This document shows positions 22,919 through 63,780 of a DNA stretch of 64,000 nt, piece by piece. This stretch comes from Acidobacteriaceae bacterium (lineage in GTDB: Bacteria > Acidobacteriota > Terriglobia > Terriglobales > Acidobacteriaceae), in the NCBI GenBank assembly GCA_003132445.1, contig PKXU01000105.1, positions 263-64,262 on the forward strand. The letters run 5' to 3'. The notes below the pieces were generated by a model. It was not told where the DNA came from, did no database searches, and worked only from the letters and a program-made list of their open reading frames with translations. The position numbers were made by a program, and so were the translations under genes. The first letter of the stretch is position 1. The number at the start of each line of letters is the position of its first letter.

Positions 22919-24931
22919 TTAGGGTGCTTCCATCTCCGTGCGTCTTTCCCGCAACGTGCGCGCCGCCAGGAAATCACGGAACATGTAGCGAATGGTGTGC
23001 CGACCGTAGCGCGTCAGGCTTCGCAGATCGGTCTTGTGCCAACAACATAAGTTCATTTTCGGGGACAACCCACAATAGAAACGGAAGCGGCGGTGCGCCG
23101 ATTCCGGCATGGTCAGCATAGCCGCGGCCATACGATGGTTGCCCTCAATAATCGTCAGCGGGCGCTGCCCTTCCATGCCAATCAGCAATACCGCATCGGG
23201 TACATGGCTGGCACGCAAGTCGGTGCCGATGGCCACCAGTTTTTTCAGAAACCGGCTTGGCTTCCCTCGTTCCAGTCCCGCCTGGATGCGGCCAATCATT
23301 TCCGTCAGGTAAAATCCGCCTCCTGCAAAGCGCCTCCAGTCATTTCGTGGAAATGATCGCAGGCGTCCCAGGTCGTTGGGAGTCATTTCAATCTCCCACC
23401 ACTCCATACCAGGAGGCAGTTCGCGCCACAATCGCCCCCTGCGGCGGAACAGCAGAGCTCGCCGCACGAAGTTTTCCTTGGGATCGTTGAGATCGGGATG
23501 CTCCACCAGATTCGTGAAGTCCCGACGATAAATATCAAACTCTGGATGATAAAACTCACTCCGTAAGAATTCCGCGATGATCTCTTCTTCCGGGACCGGC
23601 CTCAAGCGCTTCAAAGGGTGCAGAGCCGGTGGCGCGCTCTCAGCTTCCTTTTCTTCTTCTTCATCGCGCAAGATGGGAAGGGTGACTGCGAAAAGCAATC
23701 CTCCCATGACGAACACTTGCACCAGAATCACCTGCGACAAAGAAGAGTGAAAACGCCAGATCGCTCCAGTCAGCAAGACGCTCGCGCCCAACTGCACCCA
23801 GGCGGCGGTGCCGATCCGCCGCGAGATTTCGTACATCATGATCACTACCGCGATGGAGTAAATGCCGGTCATGAGAGCATATTGAGTCAGTAGGCCGGAA
23901 AATGCCGACGGCGATTCCAGCAGGAAGCGCGCGCCCAGCACACCGGTCCATACAGCCTCCGGCACCAGCGCTACCGCCGCGATAAAAACGGAAGTCACGA
24001 AGCTCACTAACAGCAGCGCGGTGTAAAGCAAATGCCGTCCTACCCGCCGATTTGTAAGACTCGTCGTCGCCGCTGAAACGGGGAACATGCTGCTCACCAC
24101 CGACCACGACAGCATGAATACCACGCGCCCCACCAGCGCCAAGGCGGCATAAATTCCGGCCTCCGGTGGCGCGAAAAAATGCTTCACCAATAAGATGTCA
24201 AGGTTGCTGAGAATTACCTGTCCAATGAAATAAAGCAGAGCCTGTACGCCCTCGCCAAACGGCGCGACCTTGACTAATCCAGGCTTGGCCCGATATTCAG
24301 GTCCCGGACTTCCGACCAGATAGGCTGCGACAATCGAAAGCATCACCGCCGTCATCACCCCGGTCACGCCCATGCCGAAGTGCAGCAGCAACAGCGCCCC
24401 GCCGAGTTTAACCGCCACTTCTACGACGACATTGATCGCCAGTCCGCGAAAGTCATAACAGCCTTGCATCTTTCCGCGACGTACACCGAGCGGTATATAG
24501 ACTCCGGTCGCGATTGCCAATAACCACAGATCATGCAACGCCGGCAGATTGAAATAGGACTTGAGGTAGGTTCCGCCTGCGGCGATGAGCACTGCGACTA
24601 CCAGGCCCGCCTGCCAGGCTCGACGCAACATCCTCGCGTAGATTTGCGCCCGCATCGGCGTTTCCGAGCTGCGAGCGATAAATTTTGAGGTCACGATCTG
24701 GAACGACAGGGTGATGGCCGACAGCAACATGAGCAACGTATACAAAGCGGAAGCGTTGCCGAAACCCGCAGCGCCTAACCTGCGCGCGATCCAGATGTTG
24801 TAGAGCAGATTGGTTGCGGCGACGAGTCCGGTGCTGCAGAGCAAAATGGCGCTGCCGCGCACGAGCCGCTCGCGCAGGCCTGCGAGATGGCCGGGCATTG
24901 TCGATGCATCCGTGGCGCTGGGTGTTGTCAT
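22919..24931 (-). CDS. Polysaccharide flippase (MATE/Wzx-like) fused to an EGNHR ParB/Srx-like domain, copy 1
   Basis: 670 residues. The first roughly 420 form a polytopic flippase with about 12 membrane helices (e.g. GSAILLCSTGLVAATNLLYN, LSNLDILLVKHFFAPPEAG). The last 200 form a soluble domain with EFLRSEFYHPEFDIYRRDF, RRGRLWRELPPGMEWWEIEM, then VLLIG and PLTIIEGNHRMAAAML (Glu596-Arg600) and CGLSPKMNLCCW. The (E/D)GxHR signature resembles the nucleotide-binding motif of ParB/sulfiredoxin-fold domains. A paralogue with the same fusion lies at 36139. ATG 24931 is preferred over 25018 because it avoids overlap with the upstream TPR gene. The flippase probably moves a lipid-linked glycan; the role of the C-terminal domain is unknown. 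Confidence 0.85.
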   Translation of the reverse strand: MTTPSATDASTMPGHLAGLRERLVRGSAILLCSTGLVAATNLLYNIWIARRLGAAGFGNASALYTLLMLLSAITLSFQIVTSKFIARSSETPMRAQIYARMLRRAWQAGLVVAVLIAAGGTYLKSYFNLPALHDLWLLAIATGVYIPLGVRRGKMQGCYDFRGLAINVVVEVAVKLGGALLLLHFGMGVTGVMTAVMLSIVAAYLVGSPGPEYRAKPGLVKVAPFGEGVQALLYFIGQVILSNLDILLVKHFFAPPEAGIYAALALVGRVVFMLSWSVVSSMFPVSAATTSLTNRRVGRHLLYTALLLVSFVTSVFIAAVALVPEAVWTGVLGARFLLESPSAFSGLLTQYALMTGIYSIAVVIMMYEISRRIGTAAWVQLGASVLLTGAIWRFHSSLSQVILVQVFVMGGLLFAVTLPILRDEEEEKEAESAPPALHPLKRLRPVPEEEIIAEFLRSEFYHPEFDIYRRDFTNLVEHPDLNDPKENFVRRALLFRRRGRLWRELPPGMEWWEIEMTPNDLGRLRSFPRNDWRRFAGGGFYLTEMIGRIQAGLERGKPSRFLKKLVAIGTDLRASHVPDAVLLIGMEGQRPLTIIEGNHRMAAAMLTMPESAHRRFRFYCGLSPKMNLCCWHKTDLRSLTRYGRHTIRYMFRDFLAARTLRERRTEMEAP

Positions 24932-24971
24932 GAGGGATTTGCCGTCGTTGGAAGCGGCGTAGATGAAGGCA

Positions 24972-27900
24972 TTAGAACGTGACTTGCGCCGCCGGAACCA
25001 CTTGAGTGGTATCCCCATGGCCGGTAAATTCGTAGAAAGTTTGCTGTGCCAGACCGAAAGAGAATCTTATTGGATAGGCGAAGAATCCCGTCTCGCCTAT
25101 CTTCGTGCTGTTCGGTTCGCGTGTGTAAGACGCCATGATGTTCGAGGTCACGCTATCGTAAGCGTGAAAATTACGTCCGGAGGACCATGCGCTGGAGGCA
25201 GAGAGCAGCCAGTGCTCCTTGATCCTCGCGTCGATGCTGAAGCGCGGACGAAGAGTTTGGGCCAGCGCGTAGTTATTGCCTTCGACCCGCCAGGATCGCA
25301 GAAACTCCGCCAGCGCCGTCACCTGGATGCGTGAACCGAAACTGTGCTGCAGCCCGCCATAAGAAATTGTCTGGTAATACTCGTACACTGATGGTCCGAA
25401 GAGCAAGTCTCGTCCGCTGTACCCGGTCAGCAATGCATTCTTGCTCCAGAGCCGGCCCACACGAAAATCAATGGCAGCGGAAAGATCCCGCGAATGCAGG
25501 GTTTCATCCGTGAACGGACCCGCTTCCCGAATCAGATTGCCGGAAAACGAAAGCCAGTTCTCGATCGAAGTGCTGGCCACATAAAGAAACTGGCGAAACA
25601 GATTTTGATTCATGAACCGCGGAGAAAGTGTATCGCGACGGATGGTGTACTGAAGTCCGGGCATGAAGTTGAGCTTCACGCTGCCCAATTGCACCATGGG
25701 CGACACCGAAACGTTGAAGATCGTGTCGAAGGTATCGCGATTCTGGATCAGAAGTTGGCTCGGAAAGGAAAGAGTTCCCTGCGCGTTACGCTCGGCGATA
25801 AAACCTTCAATCGGAGGAAATGAATCTGGCCGGAATTGAAAGCGCGAATCGGCAAAGGTCTCAACCGTTCGCCGCGGCGGTGGCAGCAAGGCCGGGTTGT
25901 TTTGCACGCCCAGCAGGCGCGCGTCCTCCTGATAGATGTTTTCATCTTCGAAAACTGCATTCACCCGCACGTCAGAGCCGATGCCCACACGATCAGTAAC
26001 AGGCCGCCCTGCTTCCTGCTGCAGCTCCATCTCTGTGGTGCGAGTCGCAGGATCCTGCGGATCGATCTGGCTGGCCAGCACAAAGTTGGCGAGCGCGCGG
26101 TCGTTCCGGCCAAGTTGGCGGTAAACATTAGCCTGCGCGATTAGATATTCATAGTTCGTTTTGCGTTCCGGATCGTCGTTCAAGCTGGCCAGTTGCAATT
26201 GCGCGCTGCGCGTATCTCCCAACGCCAGCGATGCATTGGCCATCCCCACCGCCACAGCCGCCTCATCCGCCCCCAATGCCTGCGCGCGTCCGTACATGCG
26301 CTGCGCCAGCGGATATTCGTGGATCCCCATCAAAATGTCCGCCGCGTTCAGGTAATCATCCGCGGAGGTTACATCCGTGGGCGCAACTCGCGCCTCGGCA
26401 AAGCCGAGCGCGATTTGTTGTTGTGCATCGCCGTTGCGTCCCTCCTCGGCGAACAAGCGGCCCAGAGCCAGCCGCACCTGAAGACGATTTTCATCGGAAC
26501 TTTCCAGCGCCCGCTCGTACCGGCTCATCGCGTCATTGCGGCGGCCAAGCATGCGCAGCGCATCGGCGGTTACCAGCAGCACTTCGTAATCTTTCGCTCC
26601 CAGCCGCTCCGCGGTTTCAATCGCCTGCATCGCCTCTGCTGGCTGGCGCAGTTTGGCATACGATCTCGCCAGCTGCGCGGAAATCATTGGATCGTTAGGA
26701 GCCACGGCAAGTCCGCTCCGCAAAGTGTCGGCCGATTTTTCAAATTTATGCTGCTGGTACTGCACATCGGCCAAGGCAATGTAAGTAAGTGCAGTGTTGG
26801 GATTCAGCTTCAGCGCTAGTTTGTATTCATTCTCCGCACGAGTCAGCATGGCCCTCTGGCGATAAGCCTCTGCTTTAACTAAATGCAGGCTCTCCGATTC
26901 GGGCAACAGTCGGCTGGCCGTTTCCGCTTCTTTCAGCGCTGCCGTGGAACGGCGCAACTGCAGCAAGGCGTAGGCCAGTCCGAGGCGGGCTTCGCCATAA
27001 TCCGGATTCAGTGCCAATGCCTTGCGAAAATCCGCTTCCGCCTTCGTCGCCAGACGCAGATCGTTATAAACATAGCCCCGATTCATGTATCCCACGGCCA
27101 TCTGGGGATCAATTTCCAGAGCGCGCGTGAAGTCCTTGACCGCCGCTTCATTTTCGCCGCGATCGGCGTGCACATATCCCGCAATCAGATATAAGTCCTT
27201 GTCATTCTTAAGAACCGGCTGAAACTGTTCGACGATTTTCATCGCCTCGTCGAGACGCTTCAGAAACAAAAGGTCGTACGCAAGATAGTCCACCGCTTCG
27301 CGATCGCTCGTCAGTTTCTGAATGACCTTATAGCCCAACTCCGCGGACTCTCCGTAGTTGCCCGCCATGGTCAGGTAGCGCTCATGCTCGCGCATCACCT
27401 GCGGGTTCTGTCGCTCGTCTTCTGACGCCCGCTCCAACCAATCCTTGGCCCGCGGCAACTGATGGCCTTCGAGGGCCGAATTCATCGCGCCGGAAACGAT
27501 CAAGGGATTGCTGGGCGCTCTTTGGAAGGCCTGCTGGTAGCTCTGTTCGGCGTCGTCGAAATGGCGGGTCGCGCTGTACAAATCACCCAGAGCCAGATAG
27601 GGAACGTAGTCCTCCGGATGCTTCTTCTCTAATTCCAGAAAATATTTTCGCGCCGCCTCGTTGTCGCCCATTTCGCGTGCTACAAATCCCAGCGCGCCCA
27701 AAGCGACCGCGCTCGAGGGATCGATGGCCACGGCCTGCTCGTAAGTCTTTCGGGCTTCCTCATTTCGGTCGGTCTTCCAAAGCAGATTCGCATAGTTCAG
27801 GAGCAGAACTACGTTACGAGGCTCGATCTGCAGAGCATCCTTCAAATCCTTTTCCGCGGCAGTGACATTACCTTGCCCCACTTCCGTGGCCGCTCGCAGT

Positions 27901-36138: not shown

Positions 36139-38166
36139 GTGGTAGTCGCGCGCATCGTCGAGAGTATCCCGGGGGAGAAATTTGTGTGCGCTTCTTCCGC
36201 AGCACTCCGAGCGCGCCTCGTGAGCGGCAGCATGATCATGCTGGTCAGCTCCGGCCTCGTAGGCGGCTTAAATCTTCTCTACAATCTTACGATCGTTCAT
36301 AAGTTAGGTGCGGGTGCGTTCGGCCAGGCCAGCGCAGTCTACACCGTACTGATGTTGCTCTCAGCCGTTCACCTGGCTTTTCAACTGTTATGTTCCAAGT
36401 TTGTCGCCAGGAACGATTCGCTTCCCGAAAAATTTGCTATCTACCGTCACCTTCATCGACGGGCATGGATCTATGGCGTCGGTGTCGGTATCGCGTTGTT
36501 CTGCGCCCGCTCTCTCGTCACCCAGTATTTGAATTTACCCACGCGCAATTACATCATTATGCTGGCAGTGGCCGCCGTCTTCTTTATCCCGCTTGGTCCG
36601 CGGCGGGGTTTCATGCAGGGGCTGTATGACTTTCGCCATCTGGCTTCTAACTTCGTTCTGGAAGCCGTCATCAAGGTCGCGGCGGCTGTCTTATTCATGG
36701 CGTGGGGATGGGGCGTAAGCGGAGTTATTGCGGCAATTGTCGCCTCGGTTGTGCTCGCCTATGCCTTCGGAATGCCGCACCGCGATTTGCAGGCTGATCC
36801 CCTTGCCCATATTCCGCCAGCCACCGCAATTGGAGAGGGTCTGCAAGCCTCCATGTTTTTTGTTGGACAGGTCATCATCAATAATCTGGATATCATCCTC
36901 GTTAAACATTTTTTTCCTGCCACGGAGGCGGGTGTCTACGCTGCGGTCGCGTTGGTGGGGCGAGTCGTTTACATGCTTTCATGGTCCGTGGTCAGCAGTA
37001 TGTTTCCGTTTTCAGCGGGCGTGCGCTCTGAGGAACGCGAGGGCCGCGCAGTGCTGGGAACCGCATTCCTCCTGGTCATTTTAGTTTCGGGCGTGTTCAC
37101 ACTGGCGGTGTGGGGCGCGCCGGCGCACGTCTGGCATCTTCTTCTGGGCAGTGGATTCCCCTTGAACCAGGGAGGATCGTACCGAGCTCTGTTAGTTCTA
37201 TACGCGGCCACTACGGGCATCTATTCGCTCGGCGTAGTTCTGATGAGCTACGAAATTTCGCGCAAAATCGGGAATGTCAGCTGGGTGCAACTCGGCTTCA
37301 GTGGAGCCATCATCGCCGGCATCTACCTCTTTCACGGTACCTTGCATGACGTCATCATGGTCCAGACCGTCTTGATGATGGCTCTTCTGGTCTGGGTCGC
37401 GATACCGTTCCTGCGGGCCGAGATTTACAAGCGGCCCGGAAATCTGGCCGCACCGCAAATGCAGGCCCGCTTGAGGAAGGCGCGTCGAGTTACTGAGGAT
37501 GAGGCCATCTCAGAATTTTTGAAAAGCGAATTTTATCAACAGGAATTCGACCCCTATCGCGAGCCCTTCTCTAAAATCGTAACGCATCCTGATCTGCAGA
37601 ATGAATCCGACAATCGGCTGCGCCGGGCGCTGTTATACCTTCGCCGCGGCCGGCTCTGGCGAGAGATTCCAAAGGACACCGAGTGGTGGGAGATTGAACT
37701 GAAAACCAGCGACTTGCAACGCATCCGAGTCTTTCCCCGAAATCAGTGGCGCAAACACTCCGATCGCAGTTATTACCTGCTGGATACCGCGGAGCGTATC
37801 CGCACCAGGATTTCCCATTCGCCCAGCGTCTTTGCCGCCAAACTTCGTTCACTTAGCAGCGAACTGGCGGAGTCGCCTTCCGCCGATTTCAAGCATCGGA
37901 GTACGGTATTGCTGATCGGTCTGGATGAAGCCAGCCCGTTGACCATTATCGAAGGGAACCACCGCATGACCGCGGCAGCCTTGGTGTCGCCGCAGGAAGC
38001 ACATCGGCAATTCCGTTTCTTATGCGGATTTTCTCCGCGCATGAGGAGTTGCTGCTGGTACCAGACCGACTTTTCGACGCTTCTCCGTTATGCCAAGAAC
38101 TCCGTGACCTGGCTATTTGATAACTGCCAGGTGGTCATCGATCAGGCGTTACACAACCGAGCATAA
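36139..38166 (+). CDS. Polysaccharide flippase fused to an EGNHR ParB/Srx-like domain, copy 2
   Basis: 675 residues, paralogous over its whole length to the minus-strand gene at 22919. The N-terminal flippase has about 12 helices (LVSSGLVGGLNLLYNLTIVH, INNLDIILVKHFFPATEAG). The C-terminal domain repeats the conserved blocks EFLKSEFYQQEFDPYREPF, RRGRLWREIPKDTEWWEIEL, PLTIIEGNHRMTAAALV (Glu605-Arg609) and CGFSPRMRSCCW. GTG 36139 has GGAGAGGAA directly upstream. Conservation of the soluble domain between the two copies, with the same signature residues, argues that it has a function. A nucleotide-dependent or sensor role is conceivable from the ParB-like motif, but unproven. Confidence 0.86.
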   Translation: MVVARIVESIPGEKFVCASSAALRARLVSGSMIMLVSSGLVGGLNLLYNLTIVHKLGAGAFGQASAVYTVLMLLSAVHLAFQLLCSKFVARNDSLPEKFAIYRHLHRRAWIYGVGVGIALFCARSLVTQYLNLPTRNYIIMLAVAAVFFIPLGPRRGFMQGLYDFRHLASNFVLEAVIKVAAAVLFMAWGWGVSGVIAAIVASVVLAYAFGMPHRDLQADPLAHIPPATAIGEGLQASMFFVGQVIINNLDIILVKHFFPATEAGVYAAVALVGRVVYMLSWSVVSSMFPFSAGVRSEEREGRAVLGTAFLLVILVSGVFTLAVWGAPAHVWHLLLGSGFPLNQGGSYRALLVLYAATTGIYSLGVVLMSYEISRKIGNVSWVQLGFSGAIIAGIYLFHGTLHDVIMVQTVLMMALLVWVAIPFLRAEIYKRPGNLAAPQMQARLRKARRVTEDEAISEFLKSEFYQQEFDPYREPFSKIVTHPDLQNESDNRLRRALLYLRRGRLWREIPKDTEWWEIELKTSDLQRIRVFPRNQWRKHSDRSYYLLDTAERIRTRISHSPSVFAAKLRSLSSELAESPSADFKHRSTVLLIGLDEASPLTIIEGNHRMTAAALVSPQEAHRQFRFLCGFSPRMRSCCWYQTDFSTLLRYAKNSVTWLFDNCQVVIDQALHNRA

Positions 38167-49328: not shown

Positions 49329-49550
49329 AGCGTCCTCCAGGTTTGTAATCTCTGGTTAACAAACCCTTAGATGCTGCGAGGTGTCGTGGCAGGACTCACT
49401 CAAAATCTGAAAGCTTCAGGTAACGCACGGTAGGATATACAAATTCCCCTGTATTTTTGGCAGGGTAGTTCATGGTAATTTCGTAGGGCATCAAACATTG
49501 CGGGAAATGCCACCCCTGCCGCGCCACACGTCTCTCGCTTGCCCCGTAGC

Positions 49551-50048
49551 ATGCGCCACCGAATCCTGATTGCCGACGATAGCCCGGCTGTTCGAAGCGC
49601 GCTACGCAGTCTTTTGGAGAACGCCGGTCCCTGGGACGTGATTGACGCCGAGAACGGTCGTGAAGCTTTTGCCAAAGCTCAGGAACTCAAGCCCGATCTC
49701 ATCATCCTCGATTTGGTGATGCCCGATATGGACGGCCTGACCGCCGCTCGACGAATTTCGCAGTCGCTGCCCCAGATCCCTATTCTCCTGCACACCATGC
49801 ACTGGTCCCCGCAAGTGAATGTGGAGGCACAAAAAGTCGGGGTCCGCCAAGTGGTGTCGAAGGCGGATAGCAGACTCCTGATTGCAACAGTCCAAAGCTT
49901 TCTCGGCCCTGCGACGTCGCCCGGCGCTTCTTCAACCTTTGTCACGCCTGTCGAGCCCGCTGCGGGGTGTGACACGCCTGCGGCAGCTACGGGTAAAAAA
50001 GATGATGATCGAGATGCCTGTCGCGGAAACGACAATCAAGCCCAATAA
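49551..50048 (+). CDS. Stand-alone response-regulator receiver protein
   Basis: 165 residues. A CheY-like receiver domain occupies about 1-120: ILIADDSPAVRSALRSLL, phospho-acceptor LIILDLVMPDMDGL, and VSKAD with the conserved lysine. No output domain follows, only a Pro/Ala/Thr-rich and charged tail (about 120-165). It could be a partner of the hybrid kinases at the left of the window, but nothing links them directly. ATG 49551 is preferred over TTG 49539. Confidence 0.88.
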   Translation: MRHRILIADDSPAVRSALRSLLENAGPWDVIDAENGREAFAKAQELKPDLIILDLVMPDMDGLTAARRISQSLPQIPILLHTMHWSPQVNVEAQKVGVRQVVSKADSRLLIATVQSFLGPATSPGASSTFVTPVEPAAGCDTPAAATGKKDDDRDACRGNDNQAQ

Positions 50049-50386
50049 CGTTGCATTCAATCCCGTCGCCGTCAGAACCTAAACCGAATCCTTCCAGTCC
50101 GCCACCATCGAGTTACGCTGCTAACCATCGCGATCCCGCGGCATCAACTCACGCGTTATACAATCCAGGTCCGCGCTCTTTTCCAGTGAAACGAGGGATC
50201 TCCCGTGCCCCTGATCCTTCGTGATCAAACTGAGCACTAGGCGCCCCCTGCACTGACGACAAGAACTGATTGGTTGTTGTACCATCGTCGTGTTCCCCAT
50301 TTTGAAGGAGAAACATTTTCAGCCGGCGAGGTCGGTTCGCACTCCGCTATGTTTTGCATTCCACTGACGTAAAGGAATACCGAACG
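50049..50386. other. Intergenic region with a dispersed-repeat fragment
   Basis: 338 bp. It contains a degenerate copy (about 50150-50235) of the repeat seen at 51890-52012 and 63575-63703, recognisable by CGAGGGATCTCCC and GATCAAACTGAG. No gene is supported. Confidence 0.5.
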
Positions 50387-50722
50387 ATGATGTCAGCATT
50401 TCGCTCTGCCCAGCCCTCTGCGATTACCGTGCAAGTGTTGCGGTCACGAATCGTCGTGGCCAAAGGTCCTGGAAGGCGACGGCCCTCGCATCGGCAGAAT
50501 CCATCCTCTTCCCGCGAAAGTTTTCGAGCCGGTGAAGTCGTCAGGCAAAGCGGCATTTACGAAGCAATTCACGAAGGCGCGCATCGCAGCCCGCACGACG
50601 TCGTCATGATCGAGTCGGATTTATTTCCGAAATGTGATACCTGCTCCGATCGAGTTCGTTTTCGACTGTTGCGTACCGCGCCCTACATCTTCACCGACGA
50701 GGATTTTGACAAGCCCAGGTAA
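50387..50722 (+). CDS. Small FPxCxxC-knuckle protein, paralogue 1 (YjzC-like?)
   Basis: 111 residues. After a basic N-terminal stretch it has the family core FRAGEVVRQSGIYEAIHEGA, HRSPHDVVMIESDLFPKC, CDTCSDRVRFRLLRTAPYIF. The core is shared with three minus-strand neighbours, and a single zinc-binding knuckle is suggested by CxxC plus conserved His. The pattern 'PGxxVxxSGIYxxxH...FPxC' recalls YjzC-like proteins, whose function is unknown. ATG 50387 has AAGGAA upstream and is preferred over TTG 50354. It is convergent with paralogue 2; the stops touch (50722/50723). Confidence 0.75.
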   Translation: MMSAFRSAQPSAITVQVLRSRIVVAKGPGRRRPSHRQNPSSSRESFRAGEVVRQSGIYEAIHEGAHRSPHDVVMIESDLFPKCDTCSDRVRFRLLRTAPYIFTDEDFDKPR

Positions 50723-50947
50723 TCAATCCCTCCTGCCCTGCTTTTTTGCCGAGCGCTCTCCGTCAGCCGGCAAAACCAGCTCGAAGCGCACTCGCCTTCC
50801 ACATTTTGTGCGGGTCGGAAATGTCTCTTCCGCCCGGAAACTTACCTCGTGCGGCAGCCGGTGATCCTGATGCACCACTCTATAGATCCCCGGCTTCTGA
50901 ACCGTCTCTCCCGGAGTGTGCTGTGTCTTGGCAGAATCGGAAGCCAT
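50723..50947 (-). CDS. Small knuckle protein, paralogue 2 (one Cys lost)
   Basis: 74 residues: TPGETVQKPGIYRVVHQDHR, LPHEVSFRAEETFPTRTKCG, RRVRFELVLPADGER. It has the family core, but the first knuckle Cys is replaced (FPTRTKCG instead of FPxCxxCG), so metal binding may be lost. ATG 50947 is preferred (GGTGGA just upstream). Its start lies inside the tail of paralogue 3, overlapping by 68 bp in another frame. Confidence 0.65.
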   Translation of the reverse strand: MASDSAKTQHTPGETVQKPGIYRVVHQDHRLPHEVSFRAEETFPTRTKCGRRVRFELVLPADGERSAKKQGRRD

Positions 50948-51260
50948 GGGTCCACCCGAGTTGCAGAGGGAAATTGTGATTTTGGTTGACCATTTCTGCC
51001 TGGAGGTTGTCAACCGTTATAGCTTCCTTGAAATCGGGGTCCTCCGAGATGTGAGGGACGGCCTGCAATAACTTGTACCGGACCTTGTCTCCGCAAGTCC
51101 GGCAAAACGGAAAAATACCTCTAAAGGTGAGAATTACTTTGGTTCTCGGTTCGTCGTAGTGGCAAATTTCATACAATCCGGATTCCAGGACCACGTCGCC
51201 CGGCATGTAGTGGCAATCGGACTGATCCCGTCCATTCGATCGCGCAGCAAAGTCTTCCAT
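50880..51260 (-). CDS. Small FPxCxxC-knuckle protein, paralogue 3
   Basis: 126 residues. The core is YMPGDVVLESGLYEICHYDE, TFRGIFPFCRTCGDKVRYKL and LQAVPHISEDPDF. An unrelated C-terminal extension (about 80-126) overlaps the start of paralogue 2 and may have arisen by loss of the original stop codon. ATG 51260 has GAGGTGG seven bases upstream. The sequence predicts a soluble single-knuckle protein with no signal peptide. Confidence 0.7.
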   Translation of the reverse strand: MEDFAARSNGRDQSDCHYMPGDVVLESGLYEICHYDEPRTKVILTFRGIFPFCRTCGDKVRYKLLQAVPHISEDPDFKEAITVDNLQAEMVNQNHNFPLQLGWTHGFRFCQDTAHSGRDGSEAGDL

Positions 51261-51556
51261 CGTTCCACCTCAGCACATCGGCTCACATCCGATCTCACCC
51301 AGGGGTTTGTGCACTTTGAGAAAAGAAGCCGCCGCAATTCTCCCAGCGGACTTAAGCCCCTCATCGCAACCGTGACTCAGATGCCTGCGGCCGGGTCGAA
51401 GTTGTTTTCGCCGGAGCGGGCTAAAGTACAAAATCGTCCCGGTTAACGGATATGCCGTAGTCTTCGCGTGACCGCGCCACGACAGATCCGGGTTCACCAC
51501 AAATCCAGGTTCACCACAAACCCAGGCGCACGACAGAAAATGTTATTGATTTTCCT
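51261..51556. repeat. Intergenic gap with a 17-bp tandem repeat
   Basis: Three 17-bp units lie at 51487-51503, 51504-51520 and 51521-51537; the first two differ by one base (TCCGGGTTCACCACAAA) and the third is degenerate. They sit between paralogues 3 and 4. No other feature is seen in the 296-bp gap. Confidence 0.6.
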
Positions 51557-51829
51557 TCAGCGGACGATGCCGAAGTTCAGCGGATTGATGGGGCCTTCAT
51601 CATCTAAATCCGGCAAGGCGTAGAGCTGTACCGGCATATCGCTGGCGCGATGGTCGGGGGCGGCATGAATCAATTCGAATTCGACCAGATCGCCGCATTT
51701 GGCGCAGCGCGGAAAGGTGTCTCCCTTTAAAAGTGTGACCTCGTGAGGCAGACGATGTTGCCGATGAAGGACTTTATAGATTCCGCTGTCGGGAATCTTC
51801 TGGCCGGTTCTGTAATTCGGCACGCCCAT
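51557..51829 (-). CDS. Small FPxCxxC-knuckle protein, paralogue 4
   Basis: 90 residues: YRTGQKIPDSGIYKVLHRQH, RLPHEVTLLKGDTFPRCAKC, GDLVEFELIHAAPDHRASD. This copy is closest to the family consensus and lacks extensions except an acidic tail. ATG 51829 is used; the ribosome-binding site is weak. It may bind zinc through its CxxC and His residues (inference). Confidence 0.75.
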   Translation of the reverse strand: MGVPNYRTGQKIPDSGIYKVLHRQHRLPHEVTLLKGDTFPRCAKCGDLVEFELIHAAPDHRASDMPVQLYALPDLDDEGPINPLNFGIVR

Positions 51830-52136
51830 AACCGTGCGCTATTTTAGCGCAAATCACCACTTCTCAGCTATTTCCATTGCGGTGACGGCTCAATTTTAAA
51901 TTCTCAACGATTACGATCGTCCGGGGCCATCCCGAAGTCCCGCGTTTTCTCCAGCGGGACGAGGGATCTCCCTTGCCTATACAGTCGCAATCAAACTGAG
52001 CCACCATCCCTTTACCGTCTCCAGCAGAAGCATGCCCACGGCGGCGATCCGGAGGGCATCGCCGAATCGTCAAAAGAGCGGCAGAACGCGTCCGCGAGAA
52101 CTTCGCCGCGAAACAGCATTGTGGCACACTACGTGG
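51830..52136. repeat. Intergenic region carrying a dispersed repeat of about 120 bp
   Basis: Bases about 51890-52012 closely match 63575-63703 (shared CCCGCGTTTTCTCCAGCGGG and ACGAGGGATCTCCCT). Weaker copies lie near 50150, 58800, 60530 and 62920. The core forms a hairpin (CCCGC...GCGGG). No gene is supported in the gap. Confidence 0.75.
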
Positions 52137-58679: not shown

Positions 58680-58828
58680 TGCTTCGGATGGTAGAACGAA
58701 ATGCTGGGCGGCGCAATTATTCCAGGCGGACCGCAAAGAACGCCGTCCGGAGGTAGTGGCTCAATTTGAATTTTCCAGCTAATCGTTTGGGGTCATCCTG
58801 AGTGCAGCCGTTTTTCAGGCGGAACGAA

Positions 58829-58861
58829 GGATCTCCCACCGGTCGTATCCATGGGAGATCC
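58829..58861. repeat. Hairpin within a dispersed repeat, upstream of vapB
   Basis: GGATCTCCC (58829-58837) pairs with GGGAGATCC (58853-58861). It is part of a degenerate copy of the dispersed repeat family (about 58790-58900). Confidence 0.65.
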
Positions 58862-58914
58862 CTCACGCGGCTGAAGTACGCCGCGTTTCGGGATGACGGC
58901 GGAGGAATATTTCC

Positions 58915-58941
58915 ATACTTTCATACGGAATGGTATAGTAT
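58915..58941 (+). promoter_or_regulatory. Probable promoter/operator of the VapBC-like operon
   Basis: Two ATAC half-sites (58915, 58923) face two GTAT half-sites (58933, 58938) around a possible -10 box TATAGT (58934-58939), about ten bases before the antitoxin start. VapB-type antitoxins autoregulate by binding such inverted repeats, and the leader would be very short. Confidence 0.45.
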
Positions 58942-58948
58942 CAGAGAT

Positions 58949-59203
58949 ATGGCGATTAGTATCAAGAACATAGAGGCTGAGCGACTGGCCCGCGAAATAG
59001 TTGCCAAGACCGGAGAGTCTTTAACCACGGCAATCCGTACCGCCTTGGAAGAACGTCTCGAACGGCTTAAGCAGCAGAAACGAAGTCACATCCTGAGCAG
59101 CCAATTGCAGGACATTCTGCGCCGCGTCGACCAGTTGCCAATTCTCGATTCCCGCAGCCCAGAAGAAATCCTGGGCTACGACGAGCACGGCCTTCCTCGG
59201 TAA
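58949..59203 (+). CDS. vapB: VapB-type antitoxin
   Basis: 84 residues. The N-terminal MAISIKNIEAERLAREIVAK, then TGESLTTAIRTALEERLERL, is the PSK-type VapB fold that binds DNA and dimerises. The C-terminal DQLPILDSRSPEEILGYDEH, ending in GLPR, is the toxin-wrapping region. It neutralises the PIN-domain toxin encoded downstream. ATG 58949 is internal to a longer open frame whose upstream part is repeat sequence. Its distance from the toxin (142 bp) is unusually large. Confidence 0.88.
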   Translation: MAISIKNIEAERLAREIVAKTGESLTTAIRTALEERLERLKQQKRSHILSSQLQDILRRVDQLPILDSRSPEEILGYDEHGLPR

Positions 59204-59345: not shown

Positions 59346-59738
59346 ATGGTCATTGATACGTCAGCTCTCGCAGCTGTCTTTTTCGGCGAACCGGAACGTC
59401 AAACGTTCCTGGACGCCATCACGTCGTCCACGAGCCGCCTCATCTCTGCTGCGAATCTGCTCGAAACTGGAATCGTCGTCGAAAGCCGGCAAGGCGAAGC
59501 CGCCGGTCGCGAGTTCGATCTCTTCGTGGTTCGCGCCAATCTCCAGATCGTGCCAGTCGACGCCGAACAAGCCGACCTCGCCCGCTCAGCCTGGCGAAAG
59601 TACGGCAAGGGTCGACACGCGGCGGCGCTGAACTTCGGCGATTGCTTCGCCTACGCGCTGGCCAAGTTCTCCGGTGAGCCCCTGCTGGCAAAGGGATCTG
59701 ATTTCAGCCTCACCGACATCCTCGTTCACAAACGATGA
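59346..59738 (+). CDS. vapC: VapC-type PIN-domain ribonuclease toxin
   Basis: 130 residues. The PIN domain is MVIDTSALAAVFFGEPERQ (first catalytic Asp4), LISAANLLETGIVVESR (Glu), then LNFGDCFAYALAKFSGEPLL (Asp) and GSDFSLTDI. It presumably cuts RNA (in known VapC, tRNA or rRNA) unless bound by the upstream antitoxin. It starts after the repeat array, with no clear ribosome-binding site. All acidic residues expected for activity are present. Confidence 0.92.
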   Translation: MVIDTSALAAVFFGEPERQTFLDAITSSTSRLISAANLLETGIVVESRQGEAAGREFDLFVVRANLQIVPVDAEQADLARSAWRKYGKGRHAAALNFGDCFAYALAKFSGEPLLAKGSDFSLTDILVHKR

Positions 59739-63434: not shown

Positions 63435-63780
63435 GCAGACGAGAAATCAACTCAAGCCCGAATCAATCAAAAGCCCCCGAATCAATAAAGATGGGATGCC
63501 CCATGATGGGGTGCCTCATAATGGGGGTGCCCCATTTCTCGCTTCTTTTGCGAGAAGTGGGGACGTTCGCGCAACGGGCGACGGCTCAACCTGAAATCCT
63601 CAGCGATTATCATCATCCGGGCGTCATCCCGAGTCCCGCGTTTTCTCCAGCGGGACGAGGGATCTCCCTGTATACAATCCGCCGCCATCAAACTGATCCA
63701 CGCAACCATTGCGCCCATTCGCACTTCTGTTCTATGCTTACCCGATCCTCGAGCCGTTAGCTGAAATTGTTCAGAAAGAC
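63435..63780. repeat. Intergenic region with tandem hairpins and a dispersed repeat
   Basis: 63488-63560 holds a run of short ATGGGG/CCCCAT units plus a stem TTCTCGC/GCGAGAA. 63575-63703 is the best copy of the dispersed repeat seen also at 51890-52012. No gene is supported. Confidence 0.7.

Follow-up and report, generated by a model that had tools for sequence, protein, structure and literature searches.

The closest described proteins are those of the YjzC family (Pfam PF14168), which has the first two-thirds in common with the proteins reported here, in the pattern PGxxxPxSGxY ... LLxGDxFP. No function of YjzC was found in the literature searched, which left most subscription journals outside. 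A shorter likeness, to the CxxCG knuckle, exists with the C4 finger of DksA/TraR (PF01258, zf-dskA_traR). The window, a stretch of 64,000 nucleotides from an Acidobacteriaceae bacterium (contig PKXU01000105.1), carries four small open reading frames at 50387-51829, which an earlier note made from the DNA letters had described as related:

50387-50722, + strand: P1, 111 aa from ATG; alternative open TTG start at 50354
50723-50947, - strand: P2, 74 aa from ATG; alternative open TTG start at 51013
50880-51260, - strand: P3, 126 aa, family domain and a C-terminal tail running over the start of P2
51557-51829, - strand: P4, 90 aa, the sole window member above the Pfam YjzC cut-off

The YjzC model (cut-off 25 bits) was matched by P4 with 26.5 bits and by P2 with 15.2 bits; P1 and P3 gave no match to it. 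Among the relatives collected from other genomes, 48 of 96 matched YjzC at E<=0.1, in line with the distant likeness that the earlier note had pointed out. The DksA/TraR finger was matched by P3 with 18.9 bits, below the cut-off of 24.9, and by 2 of the 96 relatives at E<=0.1; P1, P2 and P4 gave no match to PF01258.

Identification of the four genes

The relationship was checked with a profile of 92 relatives that did not include any window sequence. This profile found all four proteins with E-values from 5e-20 to 1e-27 (P4 1.2e-27, P1 6.6e-27, P2 1.2e-20, P3 5.4e-20); the next frame in the window scored 0.022 and the best reversed-frame control 0.012. All six pairs of window proteins were also matched by BLASTP, with 31-45% identity over 54-62 columns and E-values of 6e-9 to 5e-17. 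The possibility that the four might prove unrelated in profile comparisons was not borne out, as one profile free of window sequences found them all. Judged by these matches, the four open reading frames represent one family of a small domain of ~60 residues with the motif PGxxVxxSGIYxVxHxxHRxxHEVxxxxGxxFPxCxxCGxxVRFxL. In P1 the domain covers approximately residues 44-95, and the clade of P1 is marked by a PYIFxDxDF tail. A fifth copy was not found in a profile search of the source genome (5.12 Mb in 203 contigs, ~87% complete).

The arrangement of the genes agreed with the earlier description. P1 and P2 lie tail to tail with adjoining stop codons at 50720-50725, the tail of P3 overlaps P2 by 68 nt (50880-50947), and the knuckle of P2 reads FPTRTKC, with Arg in place of the first Cys. 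The overlapping P3-P2 pair recurs in three other genomes, with overlaps of 68 nt at L063 (G081), 68 nt at L181 (G766) and 122 nt at L164 (G773), and is therefore considered old; the P2 relatives at these three loci retain both Cys of the CxxC. P3 and P2 are probably translated together, and P2, having lost one ligand here, may be decaying or metal-free. A crude, purpose-written gene caller based on codon usage called P4 and missed P1-P3, which had low coding scores, and P1-P3 are taken as genes on the strength of their homology and because the P3-P2 pair is conserved. Promoter and terminator scans gave no excess over shuffled sequences.

Distribution of the family and origin of the cluster

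In an order-wide profile search, matches were obtained in at least 29 of 249 genomes and 19 of 62 genera, all of them inside the taxonomic family of the window. A search of this taxonomic family gave matches in at least 58 of 398 genomes and 26 of 79 genera. Copy numbers per genome are lower bounds, as scoring was confined to the 15-25 best candidates of each genome; the highest were at least 14 in G738, at least 12 in G081 and G119, and at least 11 in G722 and G766. At the level of the phylum, at least 14 of 396 genomes matched. Two of these (G000 and G050) belong to the family of the window; among the 12 others, G348 gave a strong match (5.3e-18) and the remaining 11 gave values of 1e-6 to 5e-4. 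In the family of a Mesorhizobium relative, the only match among 101 genomes was the query genome itself. Matches in Verrucomicrobia and Bacteroidetes sit on contigs of metagenome-assembled genomes (MAGs) and could be binning errors. Named records with genes of the family were also obtained from two MAGs, one of Acidobacteriaceae and one of Terriglobia, with match places identical to those in G766 and G169. The family is rare outside the taxonomic family of the window.

Clusters of two or three copies were common among 130 loci surveyed, and the four copies of the window were the largest cluster found. Two copies were counted at 28 loci, one of which (L074) is a single frame-broken gene, three copies at 2 loci and four in the window, so that 30 loci carry at least two intact copies. 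Similar clusters therefore exist in the genome data; no description of them, or of the family itself, was found in the literature searched, subscription journals again lying mostly outside it. Within the own genus of the window, eight of the nine other matching genomes listed carry one copy and the ninth carries two, and a four-gene cluster is unusual for the genus.

A tree was calculated from 96 rows and 70 columns and contained many open forks. The underlying alignment A3 was built without L022, L033 and L074, which are partial or frame-broken, and L102, a near copy of L101, was not added. P1 fell into a clade of eight rows together with genes of other genera (support 95/87), P2 grouped with the second copy of L063 (100/95) and P3 with the first copy of L063 (100/94). 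The placement of P4 was open, yet outside the clades of P1, P2 and P3. The starred branches force at least four separate placements of the window genes, and a single placement occurred in 0% of 200 bootstrap trees. One recent local duplication is rejected on these placements: P1-P3 belong to three distinct clades, each with support and each shared with other genera, and P4 is in none of them. The local duplication and diversification proposed earlier is not supported. Since the nearest relatives are found in other genera and copies in the own genus are few, acquisition of the cluster from outside, or repeated loss, is suggested.

The cluster is enclosed by the first two of the following repeat copies:

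50179-50235, + strand: dispersed repeat, left copy, core ACGAGGGATCTCCC
51947-52001, + strand: dispersed repeat, right copy, core ACGAGGGATCTCCC, same orientation as the left copy
about 63655-63668: dispersed repeat, third copy in the window

The core was present in 10 exact copies in the genome, 3 of them in the window; the reversed pattern was present in none. Further features of the window were noted by eye:

22919-25018, - strand, and 36139-38166, + strand: long, related-looking open reading frames with a membrane N-terminal part; a LTIIEGNHRM motif is common to their C-terminal parts
58802-59203, + strand, and 59346-59738, + strand: resembles a VapB-VapC toxin-antitoxin pair

Conserved residues and predicted fold

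Conservation was assessed in 165 family matches using the numbering of P4. Candidate ligands were His22 (98%), Cys42 (97%), Cys45 (98%), His25 (87%) and His29 (76%), and all five occurred together in 120 of the 165 matches; Gly16 (98%), Tyr18 (95%) and Pro40 (98%) were similarly conserved. At the level of sequence, a co-conserved set of His and Cys suited to one site is thus present, and residue conservation together with strand order suggests that a small beta fold carries a metal site of His and Cys. A lone CxxC knuckle is ruled out as a description of the domain: the earlier term 'single-knuckle protein' is unsupported because the CxxC is accompanied by an invariant His in the strand SGIYxVxH and by two more His residues that are frequent.

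In an AlphaFold2 model of P4, calculated from 96 sequences, the mean pLDDT per block was 86 at residues 1-10, rose to 91-97 over residues 11-60 and was low (54-66) in the C-terminal 30 residues. Strands were predicted at residues 5-7, 16-22, 29-33 and 49-56, with His22 at the end of one strand. The model of P3 reached 91-97 for residues 11-70 and 80 for residues 71-80, and fell below 55 from about residue 81, so that its C-terminal tail is predicted to be disordered. A Foldseek search with the fold against the PDB gave no match at E<=0.001, and the best VIA-align result was human GITRL (Z 4.2, rmsd 2.6 over 53 residues). A sequence-profile search of the PDB gave RNA polymerase subunit P as the best match (E 0.51), in the knuckle region only. 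NCBIfam yielded no convincing match, and the best match in PHROGs was only 0.037.

Association with signalling proteins

Fusions to signalling domains were found for 9 of the 165 family domains, in eight genomes (G064, G119, G104, G146, G207, G110 and G761, and twice in G722); no such fusion was seen for the other 156 domains. Receiver and PilZ were the only partners looked for by profile. Six fusions were to PilZ (in six genomes), two to a receiver (in two genomes) and one to MEDS (in one genome), each partner above its Pfam cut-off:

L041 (one-contig genome G064): receiver-family fusion, receiver 1.8e-24
L191: family-receiver fusion, receiver 7e-10, phospho-Asp absent
L049, L057, L080, L087, L094, L195: family-PilZ fusions
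L190:353-1201, + strand: family-MEDS fusion, MEDS 1.9e-20

The L190 fusion also had a weak match to a KaiC-type ATPase (25.0 bits; cut-off 26.6). At L057, L087, L094, L080 and L195, another gene of the family lies tail to tail with the PilZ-fused one (strands +-, span ~750 bp). As the family is at times joined to known signalling domains, the window proteins are probably signalling accessories.

The nearest neighbours of family genes were scanned in 138 of 143 cases, the remainder being longer than 700 aa. Response_reg was the commonest neighbour family (8 of 138), and the next families were found three times each. Within 500 bp of a family gene, 13 receivers were counted in 128 kb, a density of 0.102 per kb; at 1-4 kb there were 19 in 608 kb, or 0.031 per kb, a difference of about threefold (p 0.002). 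When each cluster was represented by a single locus, the median p was 0.010 at 60% identity and 0.015 at 70%; at 50% identity, where 93 loci chain into one and 26 clusters remain, the enrichment was gone (median p 0.68). A second set of 54 loci alone gave 3 of 7 receivers within 1 kb (p 0.35). The enrichment of receivers as neighbours is modest.

A larger contrast was seen in the residues of these receivers. Of the 17 receivers within 500 bp, two fusions included, 12 had another residue in place of the phospho-Asp, against 2 of 26 farther away (Fisher p 3e-5). When L038, which is ambiguous, and both fusions were left out, the count within 500 bp was 10 of 14 (p 6e-5), and after hand-merging of orthologous loci the contrast had a p of 9e-4. 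With a pseudo-receiver profile, 6 of 90 matches in six genomes lay within 1 kb of a family gene where 0.32 were expected (p 1e-6), a count that is partly circular because all six genomes helped to build the profile. The window itself has one receiver near the cluster:

49539-50048, + strand: stand-alone receiver protein, Response_reg 1.2e-25, canonical phosphorylation residues

It lies on the same strand as P1, 339 bp upstream. No pseudo-receiver was found beside the window cluster, and none of the six profile matches of G000 is on the contig of the window; no receiver was found around the genes of the P1 clade in other genomes, up to a distance of 4 kb.

Discussion

The reading preferred here, to which a probability of roughly 0.45 is given, is that the family is a metal-stabilised accessory or docking domain of bacterial signalling. 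In the compact beta fold predicted for it, one metal ion (probably zinc) would most likely be bound by the CxxC knuckle, the His that ends the SGIYxVxH strand and one more His, either His25 or His29. The domain would most likely serve as an accessory or adaptor module in signal transduction, in docking or as an input. Whether it stands by itself or is fused to receiver, PilZ or MEDS, the domain would serve to dock signalling proteins to a partner, often together with a pseudo-receiver incapable of accepting a phosphoryl group.

Three other explanations were considered. A small metal or redox sensor, or a metal-buffering protein, would fit the high conservation of His22, Cys42 and Cys45, and the signalling fusions would then merely use the domain as input, a role compatible with the receiver, PilZ and MEDS partners. 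This appears unlikely: the most frequent neighbour family is Response_reg, the 25 families listed for the 138 neighbours include none for metal transport, one site of two Cys and His looks like structural zinc, and P2 has a Cys missing. It is improbable that the genes are cargo of a mobile or recombining element, brought together and spread by recombination between dispersed repeats and of little use to the host. The repeat copies in direct orientation on both sides of the cluster, the one or two copies in the other nine genomes listed for the genus, by which the cluster may be a gain, and the low coding scores of P1-P3 speak for such an origin; set against them are the four lineages and the P3-P2 overlap conserved across other genera, the lack of any match of P4 to phages and plasmids in tblastn, and the lists of open reading frames, inspected by eye, in which no transposase or integrase was seen next to the cluster.

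A zinc protein that binds nucleic acid or RNA polymerase and regulates transcription, in the manner of DksA/TraR, would account for the weak zf-dskA_traR match of P3 and the two relatives that share it, as well as for RNA polymerase subunit P as best profile match in the PDB. All of these matches are confined to the CxxC and lie below the cut-off, the predicted fold is beta and without the coiled coil of DksA, and the fusion partners are signalling rather than DNA-binding domains; such a function is considered quite improbable.

The metal-stabilised docking domain can be placed in a wider picture, which is proposed tentatively and with more doubt than belief. A metal-binding signalling domain related to yet distinct from YjzC would have multiplied and diverged within a single family of Acidobacteriota, where it would pair with phosphorylation-dead pseudo-receivers and with PilZ (cyclic-di-GMP) in phosphorylation-independent signalling, and clusters like that of the window would hold several such partners at once. 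If true, this would give the first functional handle on YjzC-type proteins. It would also add to bacterial signalling a small module with a bound metal, in a phylum where signalling has been little studied. The pairing with pseudo-receivers would show a use made of dead receivers, and the fusions yield testable predictions of partners.

Comparison with known systems

The likeness to the DksA/TraR C4 finger is limited to the short CxxCG knuckle; the match covers the knuckle only and stays below the cut-off, and the window family is without the second CxxC. Stand-alone receiver, pseudo-receiver, PilZ and MEDS domains are likewise modular and occur alone or joined to signalling domains. Their sequences are unrelated to the family, which has a His/Cys set and no known input or output.

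The relation to YjzC is closer. With the P4 core as a single-protein tblastn query, two Paenibacillus loci of the YjzC type (L101 and L102) were found, with 43% over residues 1-35. These proteins share the PG...G.Y...LLKGDxFP part with the family but are without His22, both Cys and the VRFxL strand. The ligand-free state of the Bacillota YjzC proteins was not found in the window, where, unlike in those proteins, His22 and the CxxC are present (a single Cys in P2). As the YjzC relatives are without the ligands, metal is apparently not required by the fold. By sequence comparison, the wider family is homologous to YjzC and the PF14168 model fails to capture it. The window proteins belong to an unstudied family, which is best seen as a metal-type branch of a YjzC superfamily.
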